Below are positions 3,258-35,156 of a DNA stretch of 48,970 nt, one piece after another; the first letter of the stretch is position 1; the number at the start of each line of letters is the position of its first letter. The notes under the pieces are model-generated. The model did not search any database, was not told the DNA's origin, and saw only the letters and a list, made by a program, of their open reading frames with translations. Location of the stretch: positions 1 to 48,970 of the IMG/VR virus record IMGVR_UViG_3300037493_002279; one strand, given 5' to 3'. A program made the translations under genes and the position numbers. The DNA comes from a virus.

Positions 3258-3893
3258 ATGACCTCCGCAGTTGTGATGACCTATGACAGCCTAGTGGCTG
3301 ACGTGATCTCCTATCTGGAGCGGACTGATACCGCCACGGTAGACAAGATTCCTACTTTTATTATGTTAGCTGAGCAGGTTATTGCCAGCCAGATCAAGTT
3401 TCTAGGCAACCTGACGGTCCAAGAAAGCCAGATGATTGCTACGCAGTCGGTGATTGATAAGCCTGCCCGGTGGCACAAGACGGTCTCCATGAACGTGACA
3501 GTGGCCAACAACCGATATCCTGTCCTGTTGCGTAAGCCTGAGTACCTGCGGGAGTACTGGCCGAACCCTAGCGAGACGGAAGTCCCGAAGTTTTACTCTG
3601 ATTACGACTACACCCATTGGCTAGTGGCGCCTACGCCTGACCTTGACTATAACTTCGAGGTTATCTATTACGAGCGGGTCCAGCCCTTGAGCTCAACTAA
3701 CCAGGTTAATTGGTTCACAACCTATGCCCCGCAGGCCATGCTGTACGGGACGTTACTGCAGTCGATGCCGTTCTTGAAGAACGATGACCGGATGCCTATG
3801 TGGCAGGCTCAGTACGACCTCATTATCAACACTCTGAAGGCTGAGGATGCGATGCGCATAGCTGACCGTCAGGCCGTCGCATTGGACTCCTAA
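3258..3893 (+). CDS. Head-tail adaptor protein (SU10-adaptor-like)
   Basis: A 211-residue protein with the layout of the SU10-type phage adaptor family. A helical N-terminus (YDSLVADVISYLERTD, PTFIMLAEQVIASQ) is followed by a beta region containing PARWHKT, PEYLREYWPNP and the strand P-K-F-Y-S-D-Y-D-Y-T-H-W-L-V-A-P-T-P. It closes with YERVQPLS and a C-terminal helix. Adaptors of this type sit as a ring beneath the portal and connect it to the nozzle. An AAGGGA site precedes the ATG. The following fibre-like and nozzle genes fit a tail-assembly operon. Confidence 0.75.
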   Translation: MTSAVVMTYDSLVADVISYLERTDTATVDKIPTFIMLAEQVIASQIKFLGNLTVQESQMIATQSVIDKPARWHKTVSMNVTVANNRYPVLLRKPEYLREYWPNPSETEVPKFYSDYDYTHWLVAPTPDLDYNFEVIYYERVQPLSSTNQVNWFTTYAPQAMLYGTLLQSMPFLKNDDRMPMWQAQYDLIINTLKAEDAMRIADRQAVALDS

Positions 3894-3895
3894 CT

Positions 3896-5116
3896 ATGTC
3901 ATATAACAGCCCCTTCACAGGAAACGTAGTCCAGCCGACGGACGTTTCCTATCGCTACATAGAACTAAACTCGGATCTACAGCTAGAGTGGCCAATTAAC
4001 GGCACCACGGCTGACGGTGCGGCTGCGAGGATTATGGACGTTCTGCCTGACCAGGCTGGATGGGACTTGATCATGCCGCCGGCGAATCAGACATCGGTAG
4101 GCACTGATGCGATGATTTACAACGTAGGCAATTTTAGTTTTACGGTAACCGACTTTGACGGCGGGACTATTGTTGCGATTGCCCCTGGAGAAGCTCAGTA
4201 CATCTACGTAACAGACAATGCTGACGAGGCCGGCACCTGGAACGTTTTTCAATTCGGCGCCGGAACATCATCGGCTGATGCGGCAGTACTAGCTGGGTAC
4301 GGCTTAAAGGCTATCTCAACGACCTTAAACCAGTCGCATAGTACGGTAACCTTCTCATCTAACTACACGGCTGTGGCGGCTGACAGGGCCTCATGCTACA
4401 TCTGGAACGGCGGCGCTGGTACGTTTACCCTACCTACGCCTGCCTCCCTGGGCAACGATTGGTTTGTATTGGTGCGCAATGGAGGAACCGGTTCGTTAGC
4501 GGTTACCCCGGCGAGTGGAAATATTAACGACGTTGCATCGGTTAGCTTGCAGCCTGCCGACTCTTGCTTTGTGTGCTGCTCTGGAACGGCGTATTTTACG
4601 GTCGGCTTGGGTAAGGTGTCGCAGTTTAACTTCACGCAGTTAACGAAGCTGGTAACAAACGGCGCCTATACATTGACCTCTGCTGAGGCCGCTAATGTTG
4701 TCCAGAAGTATATTGGAACATTAACCGGCGCTGTGACGGTAGAAATCCCGCAGACGGTGCAGGTTTATTACATCTCTAACCAAACCACGGACCCTGGCCC
4801 TTACGATATTACCTTTACGACTGGCGTGGCTGGCTCTAATACGGCGATTGTGCCTGCTGGGAACCAGGTTATTTTGTTATGTGACTCGGTAAATATTTAT
4901 AACGCAACAACGATTAGTGCCGGCGCAAGCATTTCGTCTTTGTCTGACGGGACGGTTGTTAACCCATCCTTAAACTTTTCTTCTGAGACAAACACTGGCA
5001 TGTACCGGCCAGGTTCTGGGGAGATCGGCTGGTCTATCCTTGGGGTAAACGAGATGACCTTAGCGGCCTCAGGTTTAACTATTCCTAGCGGTATTGCTGG
5101 TGGTGTCTTCACATGA
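3896..5116 (+). CDS. Tail fibre-like virion protein
   Basis: The 406-residue protein is rich in Thr, Ser, Val and Gly and appears wholly beta-structured, with no enzyme motif. The C-terminal 70 residues contain NPSLNFSSETNTGMYRPGSG and NEMTLAASGL, a pattern typical of phage tail-fibre terminal regions. Residues about 140-330 hold two or three related beta units (TFTLPTPASLGNDW and TVEIPQTVQVYY are comparable). It overlaps the nozzle gene by ATGA. Whether it forms fibres, a tail knob or an adaptor-bound appendage cannot be decided. Confidence 0.65.
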   Translation: MSYNSPFTGNVVQPTDVSYRYIELNSDLQLEWPINGTTADGAAARIMDVLPDQAGWDLIMPPANQTSVGTDAMIYNVGNFSFTVTDFDGGTIVAIAPGEAQYIYVTDNADEAGTWNVFQFGAGTSSADAAVLAGYGLKAISTTLNQSHSTVTFSSNYTAVAADRASCYIWNGGAGTFTLPTPASLGNDWFVLVRNGGTGSLAVTPASGNINDVASVSLQPADSCFVCCSGTAYFTVGLGKVSQFNFTQLTKLVTNGAYTLTSAEAANVVQKYIGTLTGAVTVEIPQTVQVYYISNQTTDPGPYDITFTTGVAGSNTAIVPAGNQVILLCDSVNIYNATTISAGASISSLSDGTVVNPSLNFSSETNTGMYRPGSGEIGWSILGVNEMTLAASGLTIPSGIAGGVFT

Positions 5117-28813: not shown

Positions 28814-29003
28814 ATTGGTGCCGCGTACCCGTCAGGGCGCGTTAGTAAATGGTCTGCATGGACTGAACCCGAGAATCACCGGCTGCCGATTCACCCCGGA
28901 GCAAGCCGAGAAGCCTGTCAGTGAGGGACTTCGCAAGATAAGAGGGCAAGTGGTGAGACAAACCTCTTATCGATGAATCGCTGCCATCTTGGGTTGCTAG
29001 ACT

Positions 29004-29303
29004 ATGAGACAGGATCTCTTAGTTGGGCAGGGTAGACTAGCTAGGCTTCGCAAGAGGTTGGCTAATCACCCTTGGGTAAACTATGGGACTTTTATGGCTA
29101 CTTTTTACATGATGTATGTTGCAGGAACGGCAAGACCTAAGAAGGTCCATGCTACGCTAGAGTCAGCACGGGAAGCAGTGAAGGCGTACAAGGAACAGGG
29201 CGGGACACGAGAGTGCTTCATTTTGGCGCCGATAGAGACGTTCGCAGGCCGGAAGATACTAACGATTAAGCCAAAGGTGACGGTGGAAGCCAGAGCCCAG
29301 TAA
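29004..29303 (+). CDS. Hypothetical small protein before the terminase genes
   Basis: ATG 29004 gives 99 residues, but the first 30 are Arg/Leu-rich and may be untranslated leader. ATG 29094 would give 69 residues starting MATFYMMYVAG. The conserved-looking part is strand-helix-strand (KKVHATLESAREAVKAYKEQ, RECFILAPIETFAG). The sequence CTTCGCAAGA occurs both here (29047) and in the upstream non-coding region (28929). The start choice is unresolved. Confidence 0.5.
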   Translation: MRQDLLVGQGRLARLRKRLANHPWVNYGTFMATFYMMYVAGTARPKKVHATLESAREAVKAYKEQGGTRECFILAPIETFAGRKILTIKPKVTVEARAQ

Positions 29304-29327
29304 CGATTACCTTCACCGGGGAAAGAG

Positions 29328-29492
29328 ATGAAACCGTTAACCGAAGACCAAATCCAAGAGCTATACGACATAGCCGCAATGGAAGCCTGGAAGACCTTCG
29401 CCGCTTACCCGCCAAAGATATTCCCTATCATGTTCGCCCGAGCTATCGAAGCTCATCACGGGATACAAGATAGACAATCCCCAGAAGCGTAA
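29328..29492 (+). CDS. Small phage protein, unknown function
   Basis: A 54-codon frame behind GGGGAAAGAG. The helical product ends in MFARAIEAHHGIQDRQ, a C-terminal pattern I associate with many small phage proteins. It occupies most of the gap between the previous gene and terS. Likely real; function unknown. Confidence 0.55.
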   Translation: MKPLTEDQIQELYDIAAMEAWKTFAAYPPKIFPIMFARAIEAHHGIQDRQSPEA

Positions 29493-29518
29493 GTACACTC
29501 TGACCAAAGGAGCACACT

Positions 29519-30001
29519 ATGGCTAAGATGGGAAGACCCAGCATATACACAGACGAACTAGCGGCTACGATCCTCGGCAGGATCAGTAACGGCGAGTCGC
29601 TACGTAGTATCACGATGGAAGAGGGGATGCCGAACCCAGATACAATTTATGTGTGGTTGTTGAAAAGACCAGACTTTGCCGAGAATTACACGCGTGCACG
29701 GGAAGAGCAGGCCGACACTTTAGCTGACGAGATCCTAGCTATTGCTGACGAGACGCCTGACTCTGTGACTGATGAGAAGGGGATTAGCCGCACCGACTCT
29801 GGCTGGGTAACCTGGCAGCGGAACCGCGTTGACGCCAGGAAGTGGGTAGCCAGCAAGTTGAAGCCAAAGAAGTACGGCGACGCCTTGAAGGTCGGTGGGG
29901 ACAAGGATAACCCATTAGCGGTGACGGTGGGGACTGAGGTCTTCGACAGCGTGCTAGAGAACCTGGCGTTACAGAAACGACTGCAGAAGCCCAAAAAATG
30001 A
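29519..30001 (+). CDS. terS: Terminase small subunit
   Basis: The 160-residue product shows the common small-terminase layout. It starts GRPSIYTDELAATI, with an HTH region NGESLRSITMEEGMPNPDTI followed by YVWLLKRPDF, then YTRAREEQADTLADEILAIA and RKWVASKLKPKKYGD. TerS recognises phage DNA and feeds it to the large subunit. An AAAGGAG site precedes the ATG and the stop overlaps terL by ATGA. Confidence 0.9.
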   Translation: MAKMGRPSIYTDELAATILGRISNGESLRSITMEEGMPNPDTIYVWLLKRPDFAENYTRAREEQADTLADEILAIADETPDSVTDEKGISRTDSGWVTWQRNRVDARKWVASKLKPKKYGDALKVGGDKDNPLAVTVGTEVFDSVLENLALQKRLQKPKK

Positions 30002-32331
30002 GTGACCTGGCCGAGATACTGGGGGACGACAAGGTTCGAGCTCAGTTCATGGCAATGCCCCCGGCACAACGGGCGGCGTATGGCTGGAGGATGCAGTGGC
30101 TATCTAAGGCCCACAGGCATCAGATATTACCTACTGGGGACTGGTGGAGCGTCTGGCTGTTATTAGCGGGGCGTGGTGCCGGCAAGACCCGCACGGCGGC
30201 TGAGCAGCTTGCCTGGTGGGCCTGGACCGAGCCCAACACCCGATGGCTAGTCGGGGCGCCAACGAGCGCTGACGTGCGTGCTACATGCTTTGAGGGGGAT
30301 AGCGGCCTGATGTCAGTGATCCCCCCGATTCTCATTAAAGACTATAACCGGGCCTTCCACGAGATCACGCTAACTAACGGGAGCTTGATCAAAGGGATCC
30401 CGGCGTCCGAGCCCGAGCGCTTCCGCGGTCCGCAGTTCCACGGTGGCTGGTGCGACGAGTTGGCGGCCTGGGACTACCTCGACGCCGCCTGGGACCAGAT
30501 TAACTTCAGCGTCCGGCTCGGTAAGCATACCAGGCTGATCTGCACGACTACCCCGCGGCCGAAGGACTTGATCGTGGAGCTTATTGGCCGTGACGGTGAC
30601 GACGTTGTTGTTACAACGGCATCGACCTACGACAACATAGCGAACCTGTCGAGTAATTTTCAGAAACAGATCATGCAGTACGAGGGGACGAAGCTCGGCC
30701 GGCAGGAGATCTACGCCGAGATTCTGGATCCTGAGGAGTCTGGCATCGTCAAGCGGGAGATGTTCAAGCTCTGGCCTAACGGCAAGGAATTCCCTAAATT
30801 TGAGTACATCATTCAGAGCTACGACTGCGCCTATACGGAGAAGACGGTCAACGACCCGACGGCCTGCATTACTTTCGGCATGTTTAAACCGCTGGACGGT
30901 CCAATGTCCGTGATGGTGATCGACGCCTGGCAGGACCGGCTGCAGTACCCCGACCTGCGCCCGAAGGTCATTGAGGAGTACGACACGATCTTCGGCGAGG
31001 GCAAAGAAAAGAAGCGGGTTGACCTGATCCTAGTCGAGGACAAGAGCGCAGGCATCAGTCTTATACAAGACCTGCAACGAGCCCACCTGCCGGTCCGAGC
31101 CTACAACCCTGGCCGCGCTGACAAGATGCAGCGCCTGAACATTGTCTCCAACATTATCGCTCGGGGCCGTGTCTGGATCCCTGAGAGCAGCATCCGTAAG
31201 GGCTTCGTGCGCGACTGGGCCGAGGGCTTCGTCAGCCAGATATGCTCATTCCCAGAGGCCACGCATGATGATTTTGTGGACGCCTGCCTTGTCGGTGAGA
31301 CGTTAATTCAAATGGCTGACGGCACAACAAAGCGCATTGACGCAGTGGTTGTGGGCGACATTGTATCTACACCCGATGGATCGCAACCTGTTACGGCTGT
31401 GTTCAGTAACGGCATCAAAGAGATATGGGAGGTCGATGCTGGCGTTAAGCTGTACGGCACTGGGAACCATAACGTGATGACAAACACTGGATGGATACAC
31501 ATTGACAAGCTGATACCAAACGTGGATACTGTGTATACGTATCAACAGGAGGAATCATGGTATTCAGAAGCAAAGAAGGTGTGGCCGTCGAAACAGTTGT
31601 CTTCAACGGCAAGAGATATAACCGTTACCCTGAAGGCAATAATGCGGCACATCGCCGATACTTTTCAAGGTCTGGTGCAAGGCTTCACAGGGATGTCTGG
31701 ATTCACCACAACGGCATCATCCCAGACGGCCACCATGTCCACCACATCGACGGGGACACAGGTAACAACGACATCGCAAACCTTAAGTGCTTGCCAGCAA
31801 GACAACATAGGGACGAGCACAAAGCAGAGCTATCCGCACGAAATAGATCAGACAAGCAATTACGCCACCTCGAAAGCATCAGGGGTAAGGCCGCTGAATG
31901 GCACAGTTCAGCAGAAGGCGTGGCTTGGCATAAGAAGCATGTCGCTGAGTCTTTGGCAAAGGCTTGGAGTAAGCCAAAGGTTTATCCTGAGTTGGCTTTC
32001 ACCTGTAAGTGGTGCGGCAAGCAAGGGACTGCAAAGGTTGCTCGGAAGGTTCTTTGTGGCTCAAGCTGCCAAACAGCAGAGTCAAAGTTCCGCCTTGGTA
32101 AGAGCAGTCACGAACACCCATACCATGCGGCAAGTGTACGATCTAACGGTGGCAAATGAGCATTGTTACTACGCAAACGGTGTTTTAGTTCACAACTGCA
32201 CCCAGGCTCTGCGTTACCTGCGCGACGCCGGCTGGCTAGAGATCGACGCACCGCCGCGGGATGACTATGACGAAGAGGACCTGATCGACTCAGGCATGAT
32301 GAGCACGCGTGTTAACCCTTACGCCGCATAG
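29998..32331 (+). CDS. terL: Terminase large subunit with intein
   Basis: The frame codes 777 residues; removing the intein (residues 430-733) leaves a normal 473-residue terminase. The ATPase has Walker A GRGAGKT at 58-64, Walker B-type WCDELAAW with D153/E154, and the coupling segment TTTPRP at about 183-188. The nuclease has D276 in YDCAYT, E347/D348 in LVEDKSAG, and HDDFVDA at 423-429. The intein enters immediately after HDDFVDA; after splicing the junction reads VDA-CTQALRYL. The unspliced protein would have a disrupted nuclease site, so packaging depends on splicing. Confidence 0.95.
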   Translation: MSDLAEILGDDKVRAQFMAMPPAQRAAYGWRMQWLSKAHRHQILPTGDWWSVWLLLAGRGAGKTRTAAEQLAWWAWTEPNTRWLVGAPTSADVRATCFEGDSGLMSVIPPILIKDYNRAFHEITLTNGSLIKGIPASEPERFRGPQFHGGWCDELAAWDYLDAAWDQINFSVRLGKHTRLICTTTPRPKDLIVELIGRDGDDVVVTTASTYDNIANLSSNFQKQIMQYEGTKLGRQEIYAEILDPEESGIVKREMFKLWPNGKEFPKFEYIIQSYDCAYTEKTVNDPTACITFGMFKPLDGPMSVMVIDAWQDRLQYPDLRPKVIEEYDTIFGEGKEKKRVDLILVEDKSAGISLIQDLQRAHLPVRAYNPGRADKMQRLNIVSNIIARGRVWIPESSIRKGFVRDWAEGFVSQICSFPEATHDDFVDACLVGETLIQMADGTTKRIDAVVVGDIVSTPDGSQPVTAVFSNGIKEIWEVDAGVKLYGTGNHNVMTNTGWIHIDKLIPNVDTVYTYQQEESWYSEAKKVWPSKQLSSTARDITVTLKAIMRHIADTFQGLVQGFTGMSGFTTTASSQTATMSTTSTGTQVTTTSQTLSACQQDNIGTSTKQSYPHEIDQTSNYATSKASGVRPLNGTVQQKAWLGIRSMSLSLWQRLGVSQRFILSWLSPVSGAASKGLQRLLGRFFVAQAAKQQSQSSALVRAVTNTHTMRQVYDLTVANEHCYYANGVLVHNCTQALRYLRDAGWLEIDAPPRDDYDEEDLIDSGMMSTRVNPYAA
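31285..32196 (+). mobile_element. Intein in terminase large subunit (304 residues)
   Basis: Block A is CLVGETLIQMADG, beginning at the splice-site Cys430. Block B is seen in GTGNHNVMT. Block F is YDLTVANEHCYYANG, and block G is VLVHN followed by Cys734, the +1 extein residue. These are the parts needed for class 1 protein splicing (N-S shift at Cys, Asn cyclisation, Cys +1). Between the blocks, about 200 residues are Ser/Thr/Gln-rich without domain similarity, because that DNA mainly encodes an HNH endonuclease in another frame. Confidence 0.92.
31557..32159 (+). CDS. HNH homing endonuclease nested in the intein in another frame
   Basis: The 200-residue protein has a full HNH homing-enzyme layout. 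It opens VFNGKRYNRYPEG, then ARLHRDVWIHHNGIIPDG, the HNH core VHHIDGDTGNNDIANLKCLP with H62/H63, N70/N71 and H84/H88, and a C-terminal zinc-like pattern C150-x2-C153 ... C167-x3-C171. Its frame differs from terL, which stays open across all 603 bases. AGGAGG lies five bases before its ATG, and TGA ends it at the start of intein block F. It presumably cuts intein-less terL alleles to spread the element. Confidence 0.88.
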   Translation: MVFRSKEGVAVETVVFNGKRYNRYPEGNNAAHRRYFSRSGARLHRDVWIHHNGIIPDGHHVHHIDGDTGNNDIANLKCLPARQHRDEHKAELSARNRSDKQLRHLESIRGKAAEWHSSAEGVAWHKKHVAESLAKAWSKPKVYPELAFTCKWCGKQGTAKVARKVLCGSSCQTAESKFRLGKSSHEHPYHAASVRSNGGK

Positions 32332-32393
32332 TCGGTAGACGGTTAACGGAGACCCCATGATAATTGCTAAAGTTAACAATAGAGGGTGACGCG

Positions 32394-35156
32394 ATGACAT
32401 TGAGCGAATGGTACAAAGCCGGCAACCACCTGCCTAACATGGCTAAGGGCGGTGAGGTATCGGGACCTAAAGGGTTCGGCCTTGCTGACGTTGCCCCGTT
32501 CGTGAGCCCGGTAAGCATGAAGACCGGTGGCCAGGCTCGGACACGGGCAGGCACGAAGGTAGCAAAAGACGACATGATCCCTGGCGCCATACGTGGTCTA
32601 GCTCAAATGTTAGGCGGCGTTGCCCGTGGTGCGGCATCAACATTTGCTGGTGGCCCGGCAGATATTATCAACATGTTTGATATCCCGAAGACCATGACGG
32701 GCGAGTCTTACCAGATACCGTATGGCTCAGAGTACTTTAAGGAAAACCTGCCGTTTGCCCCAACGACTCAGACAGGCAAAATTAGCCAGGATCTGGGCGG
32801 CTTTGTGCCACTGCCGGTGAACGCATTGCCCCAGGCTATCAAGGCTGGGTCTAAAAAGCTTGGGCCGGCTATGGCCAATCTGCTTGAAAAAGAGATGAAG
32901 CGGTCCGGCATGATGATGGGCATTGCCCCTGAGGGCGGCGCACCTAAAGCTAGAGAGTTGAAAGGCGCCTTAGCCCCAACGAAAGAGCCGGTCCGCGGGG
33001 AGACGAGCAAAGAGCTCAGGAAGCAGCAGAAGGAGCAGCTAACCGACGTTCAGAAAGAAAAATTAGAGCAAGTGCGCCAAACGTCGCCTGATGTTTATGA
33101 CGCGACGAAGTTTATGACGCCGATGGAACTCGGGAAAATCTTAGCGGATCCAGACAGCATTCGAAAAATGGACCGGCTGTTAAACGTATTGCCATCTGCC
33201 AAGGAATTGGCCAGCGTTGCAAAGGCTGGGGAACCGAAGCGTGGCTGGTATCGCGCATCAACGCAGGCTTTGATTGACGTTTTCGGTGTGCAAGATGCGC
33301 CCCGCTTTGCTTCATTGTTAGCTGCCATGTCGCCGCAGACCTCTGTAGAAATGAATCTACTGAACACATTGAACACCTGGAAGAACTGGACCGCTGCTGG
33401 CCGGCCAGTTGACCCTAGTGAAATCCGCAAAATAATGGGCGCATCGGTCGCAGGCATTAAGGGTGAAGAGTCGGTGCTTGAGGCATGGGCTAACAATTCC
33501 GTCCGAGCGTTAACGGCGCGAGACCCAACAAAGGTAACGTTATCCGGGCCAAAGGTTGATTCATTTTATAAAAATCTCACCGATGACGTATACAAGGTAA
33601 CGAACGATGCGTGGATGGCATCAGGCATGGGTGTTGACCAAGGCCTATTTTCTGGATCCCCATCGGCAATTCAATTATTAAAGGGCGACCCAGGTTTATC
33701 CCCTGGGTATATTGGCGCATCCGCTCGAACGCGGGAAGCGGGTCAAAAAGCCGGGATGTATCCATCCGAGGCCCAAGAGACTACCTGGTCCACCTTTATG
33801 CCATTGTATGAGATGCAAAGGGCAACGGGCTTGCCTGCAAGGGAGATCCTCCAGCGTGGACTGTTAACACCGGATGTAATCCGCGGCACCCCAGATTTTG
33901 CTACGTTACTCGGTGAGGGTAAATACGGGAATATATTAGGGGAAGCTGGGTACGGGGAGCAATTGGCTGGCCTCAAGCCAACGCCGTTTTCCTCGAAAAC
34001 TCAAAATTTATCAATCAGTGAGCAGCGTGATTTGGAAAACGCAGCGAAGCGGCTTGAAAGCTTACGTGATTTACGTGGCATGGAAAGCCGGGGACGTGTA
34101 TTCCCTGGCGTAAAGATAAACAAGGAAACCGGCGAGATTGTTCCGCCCGAGTCAGCCTTTGCATACAGCACGCATGAATATGTCCCAGGCCGCGGGACCG
34201 GGCATCTGGAAGATCTAATTGACGCTCCCTTTGGCTCCCGATCTAACTTCTCTAGCCGCGTGTCCTCGGCCTTTAGAGACCCTCAGGGGCTCGATATCAT
34301 GCAACAGTCGGTAGGGTTAAAGCCCATAGCCACTCGCCCGATGACGGGTGCTTTCCGGCCTTCTGGTGACATTCCTTACCAAGGAACATTAAAAGCCCCG
34401 GACGTAAGTCGGCAACCGATGGAGATCAGCCCAGGCTTTGCGTCTGGCGTTGAAGTGCCATTGATTCCAAATACAAAAACTGGCGCCCTAGAAATACCTG
34501 GGAATATTCAGAGGCAGTTAACCGGGGCTGAGGCTGGCCGCGGGTATATGACGGCACAAAGGGGTTCGCCGTGGCATGCAATGATGCCAGACGAAGAGGG
34601 GGGCAGCCTTGTTTTGCCATTAGAAAAGAAAGCCGACCCAGAAAAAATGGGATTAACGTCGGCGTTACTTGGTGGTAAGTACGACTTAGCGGATACGGGT
34701 GCCGGCGTATCAGTCTTAAATTGGGGTGACGTTCCAGCCGTTGAGGACGCTAAACAATTGTCTGCCCTAATGGGCAGCAAAGACGCACGAAGAGCTACCC
34801 AGACGGGCGACTACGTAGATTATGGCCCTGCCTGGGAACAAAAAGAGGGGTCCGGCGCTGCGACCCGTCAGTTCTTAGATATTTACGGTGGACTCAGAGC
34901 GCCAGAGAAACAAGGCCTGTCTGCCGGCATGCAAGAAATATCCCCTGAGTTACTAGAGATTTATCAGTCTGTATCGAAAAGCAAGAAAATGCCGACGCGT
35001 GAAGACTTGATGAATGCGTTACGCATCATTCGTGACAAGGGGGTTCCTGGCTTAATCGCGGCTTTGGCTGCCGGCGAGGCTTTGCCTGCTGAGCAAGAGA
35101 AGCGTAAGGGCGGCCTTGCCCACTTATCACAAACTCAGGCCCACGGGCGAGGATAG
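32394..35156 (+). CDS. Large virion-associated or polyvalent protein
   Basis: The product is 920 residues from ATG 32394, preceded by GAGGGTGA; a TTG 30 bases upstream is possible. It begins with Gly/Lys motifs (NMAKGGEVSGPKG, MKTGGQ) and a Gly-rich region. A helical domain at about 250-480 contains RYASLLAAMSPQTS-like sequence and KVDSFYKNLTDDVYKVTNDA, resembling a DUF7178-type module of phage polyvalent proteins. The rest is mixed and ends KRKGGLAHL. It lies between terL and portal. Possible roles are an internal protein carried with the DNA or a packaging accessory; it is not recognised more precisely. Confidence 0.55.
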   Translation: MTLSEWYKAGNHLPNMAKGGEVSGPKGFGLADVAPFVSPVSMKTGGQARTRAGTKVAKDDMIPGAIRGLAQMLGGVARGAASTFAGGPADIINMFDIPKTMTGESYQIPYGSEYFKENLPFAPTTQTGKISQDLGGFVPLPVNALPQAIKAGSKKLGPAMANLLEKEMKRSGMMMGIAPEGGAPKARELKGALAPTKEPVRGETSKELRKQQKEQLTDVQKEKLEQVRQTSPDVYDATKFMTPMELGKILADPDSIRKMDRLLNVLPSAKELASVAKAGEPKRGWYRASTQALIDVFGVQDAPRFASLLAAMSPQTSVEMNLLNTLNTWKNWTAAGRPVDPSEIRKIMGASVAGIKGEESVLEAWANNSVRALTARDPTKVTLSGPKVDSFYKNLTDDVYKVTNDAWMASGMGVDQGLFSGSPSAIQLLKGDPGLSPGYIGASARTREAGQKAGMYPSEAQETTWSTFMPLYEMQRATGLPAREILQRGLLTPDVIRGTPDFATLLGEGKYGNILGEAGYGEQLAGLKPTPFSSKTQNLSISEQRDLENAAKRLESLRDLRGMESRGRVFPGVKINKETGEIVPPESAFAYSTHEYVPGRGTGHLEDLIDAPFGSRSNFSSRVSSAFRDPQGLDIMQQSVGLKPIATRPMTGAFRPSGDIPYQGTLKAPDVSRQPMEISPGFASGVEVPLIPNTKTGALEIPGNIQRQLTGAEAGRGYMTAQRGSPWHAMMPDEEGGSLVLPLEKKADPEKMGLTSALLGGKYDLADTGAGVSVLNWGDVPAVEDAKQLSALMGSKDARRATQTGDYVDYGPAWEQKEGSGAATRQFLDIYGGLRAPEKQGLSAGMQEISPELLEIYQSVSKSKKMPTREDLMNALRIIRDKGVPGLIAALAAGEALPAEQEKRKGGLAHLSQTQAHGRG

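Follow-up and report, generated by a model that had tools for sequence, protein, structure and literature searches.

Can one stretch of phage DNA encode the linker of an intein and, in a second reading frame, a complete HNH endonuclease? This question is raised by the terL locus of the window, by which the whole analysed stretch of 48,970 nucleotides is meant. The host gene was identified as terminase large subunit (TerL) by the signatures Terminase_6N (2.3e-19), Terminase_6C (3.4e-7) and phrog_38 (2.8e-25). The terminase and intein features are as follows:

29519..30001, + strand: small terminase subunit, 5' of terL (phrog_1482, 5.7e-41)
29998..32331, + strand: TerL precursor ORF (terminase large subunit with intein), 777 AA, uninterrupted
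29998..31284, + strand: N-extein, with the C-terminal ...THDDFVDA at the nuclease motif; junction point of intein-free alleles
31285..32196, + strand: intein of 304 AA, C1...HN, open for 304 codons
31285..31548, + strand: Hint N-half, intein residues 1-88; AlphaFold (AF2) pLDDT 94-98, dropping to 81 at its end
31552..32076, + strand: intein loop, residues 90-264, predicted to be disordered (pLDDT < 50) and read through in the intein frame
32086..32196, + strand: Hint C-half, residues 268-304, with block F VYDLTVANEHCYY and the end VLVHN; pLDDT 93-97; TIGR01443
32197..32331, + strand: C-extein CTQALRYLRD..., starting with the +1 Cys; junction in intein-free alleles

The intein starts with Cys1, ends with VLVHN and is followed by the +1 Cys of the C-extein. 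It is matched by Pfam Intein_splicing (9.6e-10) and NCBIfam TIGR01443 intein_Cterm (9.6e-6). In the AlphaFold model, residues 1-88 and 268-304 form a confident Hint fold, mostly with pLDDT 93-98, and the best PDB matches of the predicted intein are mini-inteins (Mtu RecA, 2imz, E 6.6e-7). The intein is a precise in-frame insertion in a conserved gene which also exists without it: 64 empty alleles were found, in which ...DA is directly followed by CTQALR... or close variants of this junction occur. The insertion points shift by a few residues around a conserved Asp of the nuclease motif. A group I intron was rejected, as window positions 29000-34500 gave no Rfam match (E up to 1) and the host frame is open. 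A split intein was rejected for the window as well, since no stop codon lies between the Hint halves and the ORF 29998-32331 is continuous.

Several other regions of the window were inspected. Immediately 3' of terL, positions 32450-32710 form a variable segment compared to the near relative L252, located between blocks of 97-98% identity. A 930-AA ORF 3' of terL (32364-35156) has similarity only to phrog_3842, and the region 14564-16063 matches an internal virion protein with an endolysin domain. No tRNA genes were found in the window.

The features of the HNH gene, which lies over the middle of the intein, are:

31547..31552, + strand: AGGAGG Shine-Dalgarno (SD) sequence of the HNH gene, within the intein reading frame and 4 bases before the ATG at 31557
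31557..32159, + strand: HNH gene, 200 AA, in the -1 frame relative to the intein (= intein frame +2), over intein residues 91-291
31680..31808, + strand: HNH_3 domain (PF13392, 2.1e-14), HNH residues 42-84
32004..32069, + strand: four-Cys motif C150, C153, C167 and C171, likely a zinc finger, invariant in 69 sequences
32157..32159, + strand: TGA of the HNH gene, spanning the intein block-F codons AAT and GAG

The initial annotation had placed an intein with splicing blocks at both ends at 31285-32196 and an intact HNH gene, offset by two bases and with AGGAGG, ATG and TGA of its own, at 31557-32159. These coordinates are exact, and the features named were all recovered. It had further described a whole gene in another frame, neither an in-frame domain nor part of a split intein, which agrees with the continuous host ORF and the -1 frame of the HNH. 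The canonical in-frame endonuclease domain was not found; because its HNH is out of frame, the window intein is a variant and not a canonical endonuclease-bearing intein. The HNH start corresponds to intein residue 91, and therefore the predicted disorder begins just where the HNH begins.

The HNH motif with the conserved catalytic His and Asn residues is present in the window HNH. Besides the four cysteines, the residues H44, H62, H63, N71, N75 and H84 are invariant in the 69 HNH sequences. The AF2 model of the window HNH has a mean pLDDT of 90.8. Its nearest solved relative is I-HmuI (PDB 1u3e), with a weak profile match (E 0.001, residues 40-107), and I-HmuI is also the best fold match of the model, again weakly (E 0.043).

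Relatives were collected by scanning viral contigs and species genomes with an alignment query, followed by hmmsearch of all forward ORFs; the family scans listed at most the best 80 of 486 matches. A contig scan with a single HNH query gave no match, and the alignment query succeeded. At least 199 loci carry an HNH of more than 100 bits, which fall into at least 117 clusters at less than 90% nucleotide identity. Among the matches listed, a single ORF carries both Hint halves and encloses the HNH in 97 of the 117 clusters, and the frame of the HNH relative to this ORF never varies. The same arrangement is found in L109, L208, L209 and L212, in which the score of the Hint C-half was insufficient or absent, and L205, clipped at the contig start, also fits overprinting. 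When the 108 non-redundant loci with a Hint N-half among the matches listed were tallied, 101 were overprinted in the same frame, 1 was overprinted in the other frame and 6 were split. This tally is the fairer figure, because the loci were found via HNH or intein similarity and not via openness.

All 53 host ORFs scanned look like TerL (Intein_splicing 48, phrog_30251 50, phrog_2 49). Isolates with an overprinted intein are Acinetobacter phage Highwayman (L025), Tetrasphaera phage TJE1 (L026) and Rhodobacteraceae phage LS06-2018-MD07 (L027). At the hidden HNH the annotation of each shows TerL only; such genes are missed by annotation pipelines. By record title, further relatives in prophages or contigs belong to Pseudomonadota, Bacillota, Bacteroidota, Planctomycetota, Chlamydiota, Nitrospirota, Acidobacteriota, Patescibacteria and Thermoplasmatota bins, bearing in mind that metagenome bins can be contaminated.

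Could the double reading be an accident? With the HNH protein fixed, an open intein frame in the window alone has p = 0.022 when the gene's own synonymous codons are shuffled and p = 0.006 with GC-matched codons. The value of 1 in 15,000 proposed initially, (61/64)^201, was based on the wrong null, which ignores the fixed HNH protein. As evidence against chance, the open frame in the window alone is modest, and in a single sequence an open frame proves little, because the free-standing HNH genes L240 and L241 are also stop-free in the intein-equivalent frame over the matched part. The 0.6 to 2% obtained for the window sequence alone thus leave some room for a relict or chance product, i.e., a dead HNH or an intein frame open by luck or by assembly error. 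We nevertheless consider this extremely improbable, since the HNH evolves as a protein, its catalytic residues are invariant and about 100 diverged loci retain both ORFs. A sequencing or assembly frameshift, or a recent artefact, against which a check had been advised at the outset, is ruled out by five contigs (L001-L005, 90-95% identity) and the approximately 100 diverged loci, all sharing the frame arrangement.

Over the 97 genes, 0 stops were observed in the intein frame compared to 166 expected with own codons permuted or 430 expected with GC-matched codons. Since a single ORF with both Hint halves was the criterion for this set, the absence of stops is partly by construction. In free-standing HNH genes, stops in the equivalent frame are about as numerous as expected. 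Stops in the intein frame arise only from an HNH codon NTA followed by a purine (NTA+R) or NTG followed by A (NTG+A). Among the 16,959 HNH codons of the 97 overprinted genes, none of ~456 NTG codons is followed by A and none of ~226 NTA codons by a purine. In free-standing relatives, A follows NTG in 31% and a purine follows NTA in 60% of cases, and split genes are similar. Internal Met residues amount to 6.7 per 1000 in overprinted genes versus 15.3 in free-standing genes. For the other frame, ~15 stops per gene are expected and 14.4 were observed. The -1 frame is presumably preferred because ~4 stops per gene have to be avoided there versus ~15 in the other frame.

The type of selection was examined by comparing the frames. 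At 10-15% divergence, substitutions in the overlap are 0.078, 0.057 and 0.204 at HNH positions 1, 2 and 3, respectively. The amino acid identity at this divergence is 0.886 for the HNH, 0.763 for the intein frame and 0.758 for the third, non-coding frame. The same is seen when the window is compared to L001: differences at intein positions 1, 2 and 3 number 3, 2 and 15 in the N flank (15 of 20 at position 3) and 1, 1 and 4 in the C part. In the overlap they number 7, 19 and 4, i.e., 19 of 30 fall at intein position 2, which is HNH position 3. Within the overlap, the three-frame identity comparison thus revealed no amino acid constraint acting on the intein frame; at 25-40% divergence, the intein frame is slightly above the third frame (0.489 versus 0.451). 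As judged from these sequence comparisons, selection maintains the HNH as a protein, whereas it maintains the intein frame in the overlap only as stop-free. Of the initial view that both frames are maintained, to be checked frame by frame, the HNH half stands; the intein frame drifts in the overlap like a non-coding frame.

The signals around the HNH gene bear on how the protein would be made. The start codon is ATG in 90 of the 97 overprinted family members. An SD sequence of at least 4 nt is located upstream of the HNH in 73% of the family versus 25% expected, and one of at least 5 nt in 51% versus 7% expected; a recognisable SD is absent in about a quarter of the members. The HNH stop codon usually lies inside intein block F, formed by codon pairs such as TAT GAT, TAT AAT and AAT GAG. 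Therefore, the final HNH residues are doubly coded with essential intein sequence. Programmed -1 frameshifting from the intein N-half, which would give an intein-N-HNH fusion instead of internal initiation, would suit the exact -1 position of the HNH and the case of L026, whose HNH frame stays open over most of the N-half. The start codon and SD statistics speak against such frameshifting, as does the window itself, in which the HNH frame is open for just 51 nt above the ATG, and we regard it as very unlikely.

Relatives of the enzyme also exist in other contexts. Free-standing HNH relatives (L029-L032, L240-L243) adjoin terL, terS or the portal gene in many phages and are possibly the source of the inserted gene. 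L017 has a fragmentary free-standing HNH and no intein. In the split inteins L201, L203, L206, L210, L214 and L219, stops end the N-half, the HNH stands alone and the C-half ORF comes next. Vibrio phage 1.238.A (L238, MG592603.1) has a split TerL intein with the HNH between the halves; in its annotation the two halves appear as hint proteins and the HNH is missing. The split TerL intein of Brochothrix phage BL3 (L239) keeps only a truncated HNH. In L204 (positions 3512-4602; Planctomycetota MAG contig JAOSKM010000004.1), an HNH relative overprints a TerL intein in the opposite relative frame; the intein frame contains 0 stops, 8-12 being expected. This is apparently an independent case of overprinting.

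A tree of the HNH proteins was computed from 122 rows (103 overprinted, 11 free, 7 split and 1 other-frame). The tree is unrooted, results from a short search and places L238 on a long branch; it requires at least 15 state changes, several of which are forced by well-supported branches. The window HNH falls in a supported clade of 29 rows, all overprinted. The tree shows that free, split and overprinted forms have interconverted repeatedly, without giving the direction. Since the same enzyme occurs in free-standing, split and overprinted form, the family has built-in controls for dual coding.

Among the closest TerL relatives examined, the insertion site is empty in 64 of 77, occupied by a full intein in 7 and by a mini-intein in 1. 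L245, L247 and L252 have no intein, their TerL being 99-100% identical to the window in amino acids and 90-97% in nucleotides over the aligned gene beside the site. Mini-intein alleles without the HNH were found in L018/L151, L161, L162, L167, L168, L174 and L178, several of them formed by in-frame deletion. Compared to L154, L168 and L167 have lost the HNH by clean in-frame deletion (531 and 537 nt, respectively) between flanks of 95-97% identity, L018 shows an in-frame HNH loss of net 537 nt compared to L001, and L174 retains a partial HNH remnant. The Hint halves are intact in the HNH-deleted alleles, and therefore the overprinted loop seems to be dispensable for splicing. Natural inteins of this family tolerate long loop insertions. 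The empty alleles and the HNH losses fit homing, which is not the same as proving it.

These alleles also bear on a different role, in which the HNH would serve the terminase as a packaging co-factor, a function proposed for HK97 gp74; its place in the terL intein would then ensure co-expression and not homing. Such a role is conceivable because free-standing HNH relatives adjoin terL in other phages, some lying beside terS, and PMC10448857 discusses HNH nucleases that assist the terminase. It is unlikely, since the HNH follows the intein and not the phage and its closest relative of solved structure, I-HmuI, is a homing enzyme. Further, the HNH is dispensable, because in the nearest phages the same TerL occurs with neither intein nor HNH and because the HNH has been cleanly deleted from otherwise intact inteins.

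With high probability, the locus is a mobile intein in the TerL nuclease motif, whose homing HNH is a separate -1-frame gene over the loop; splicing, translation and homing are inferred. A ribosome on terL would read straight through, whereby the overlap would become a long disordered loop. The two Hint halves would then assemble into one fold and remove the complete 304-AA intein, leaving functional TerL. Because the ORF and the intein are continuous, splicing would be in cis. Other ribosomes would initiate at the internal SD and ATG, as the SD and start codon statistics suggest, producing the free HNH enzyme, and HNH translation would end at the stop codon made by the block-F codons. The HNH would cut the intein-free terL of co-infecting phages and repair would copy the intein together with the HNH gene into the cut terL, which is suggested by the empty alleles and the patchy distribution.

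In this arrangement, the overprinted gene sits on a loop whose sole need is freedom from stops. The intein and HNH functions are separated at the protein level, and recoding therefore allows either one to be mutated without the other. For the study of dual coding, the family further provides a large natural data set, as protein-level constraint acts on one frame and only stop avoidance on the other. A broader proposal, in which we place slightly less than even confidence, concerns dual-coding inteins, whose own linker is overprinted in another frame by the gene of the homing endonuclease. Among inteins at the terL nuclease site, this architecture would be common, though not yet reported, and would extend over phages and prophages from many phyla of bacteria and archaea. 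It would have originated more than once, in the large -1 group and at least in L204 with its +1 frame, and the frame preference would follow from the genetic code, as in -1 just two rare codon contexts (NTA+R and NTG+A) have to be avoided.

Among known systems, I-HmuI shares the HNH core with the window HNH, its similarity being weak and within residues 40-107. I-HmuI is encoded in a group I intron. Fractured genes, in which split inteins have a free-standing endonuclease gene between their halves, were reportedly described by Dassa et al. in 2009. Like the window, these systems have a separate endonuclease gene between Hint halves, and the split form occurs within the present HNH family itself (L201, L203, L206, L210, L214, L219 and L238; L239 with a truncated HNH). 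The host ORF is broken in split inteins, whereas in the window the host ORF and the intein are continuous.

A second comparison concerns hidden HNH genes. The ShiLan domain and the Pacc40 gp60 insertion contain a 'hidden HNH' out of frame in phage methylases (PMC11855218), as does phage Applejack (PMC12613952). As in the window, an out-of-frame HNH lies within an insertion preserving the host ORF. The statement in the initial annotation that no close precedent is known was therefore too strong, though no intein was found in ShiLan/Pacc40. In these insertions the authors detected neither a splicing domain nor an RBS, and in their view the insertion is retained in the methylase (PMC11855218), whereas the window has a complete Hint domain and an SD. 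A literature report of an intein with an out-of-frame endonuclease was not found; the 2025 preprint of Gosselin et al. (10.1101/2025.01.02.630785) on a non-canonical actinobacteriophage intein architecture may cover it. Part of the architecture may be known, because PMC11855218 at one point cites work on overlapping reading frames in actinobacteriophages.

Mycobacteriophage TerL inteins sit in the ATPase domain, and LAGLIDADG endonucleases were shown for BAKA and Bethlehem (PMC5050341). In contrast, the inteins of the window family are located at the C-terminal nuclease motif HDD..DA and have an out-of-frame HNH. An in-frame HNH_3 intein exists in the dCTP deaminase of cyanophage CL131 and splices (PMC6293099). 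Canonical homing inteins, e.g., PI-SceI and that of CL131, resemble the window in the Hint domain, the insertion at a conserved motif, the endonuclease coding region between blocks B and F, and the existence of intein-free and endonuclease-free alleles. Their endonuclease is an in-frame domain, whereas that of the window has another frame and its own SD, start and stop; for this reason, the window HNH would be a separate protein and the intein itself no nuclease. Next to the in-frame domain and the split intein, overprinting is a third way for a homing endonuclease to reside in an intein.
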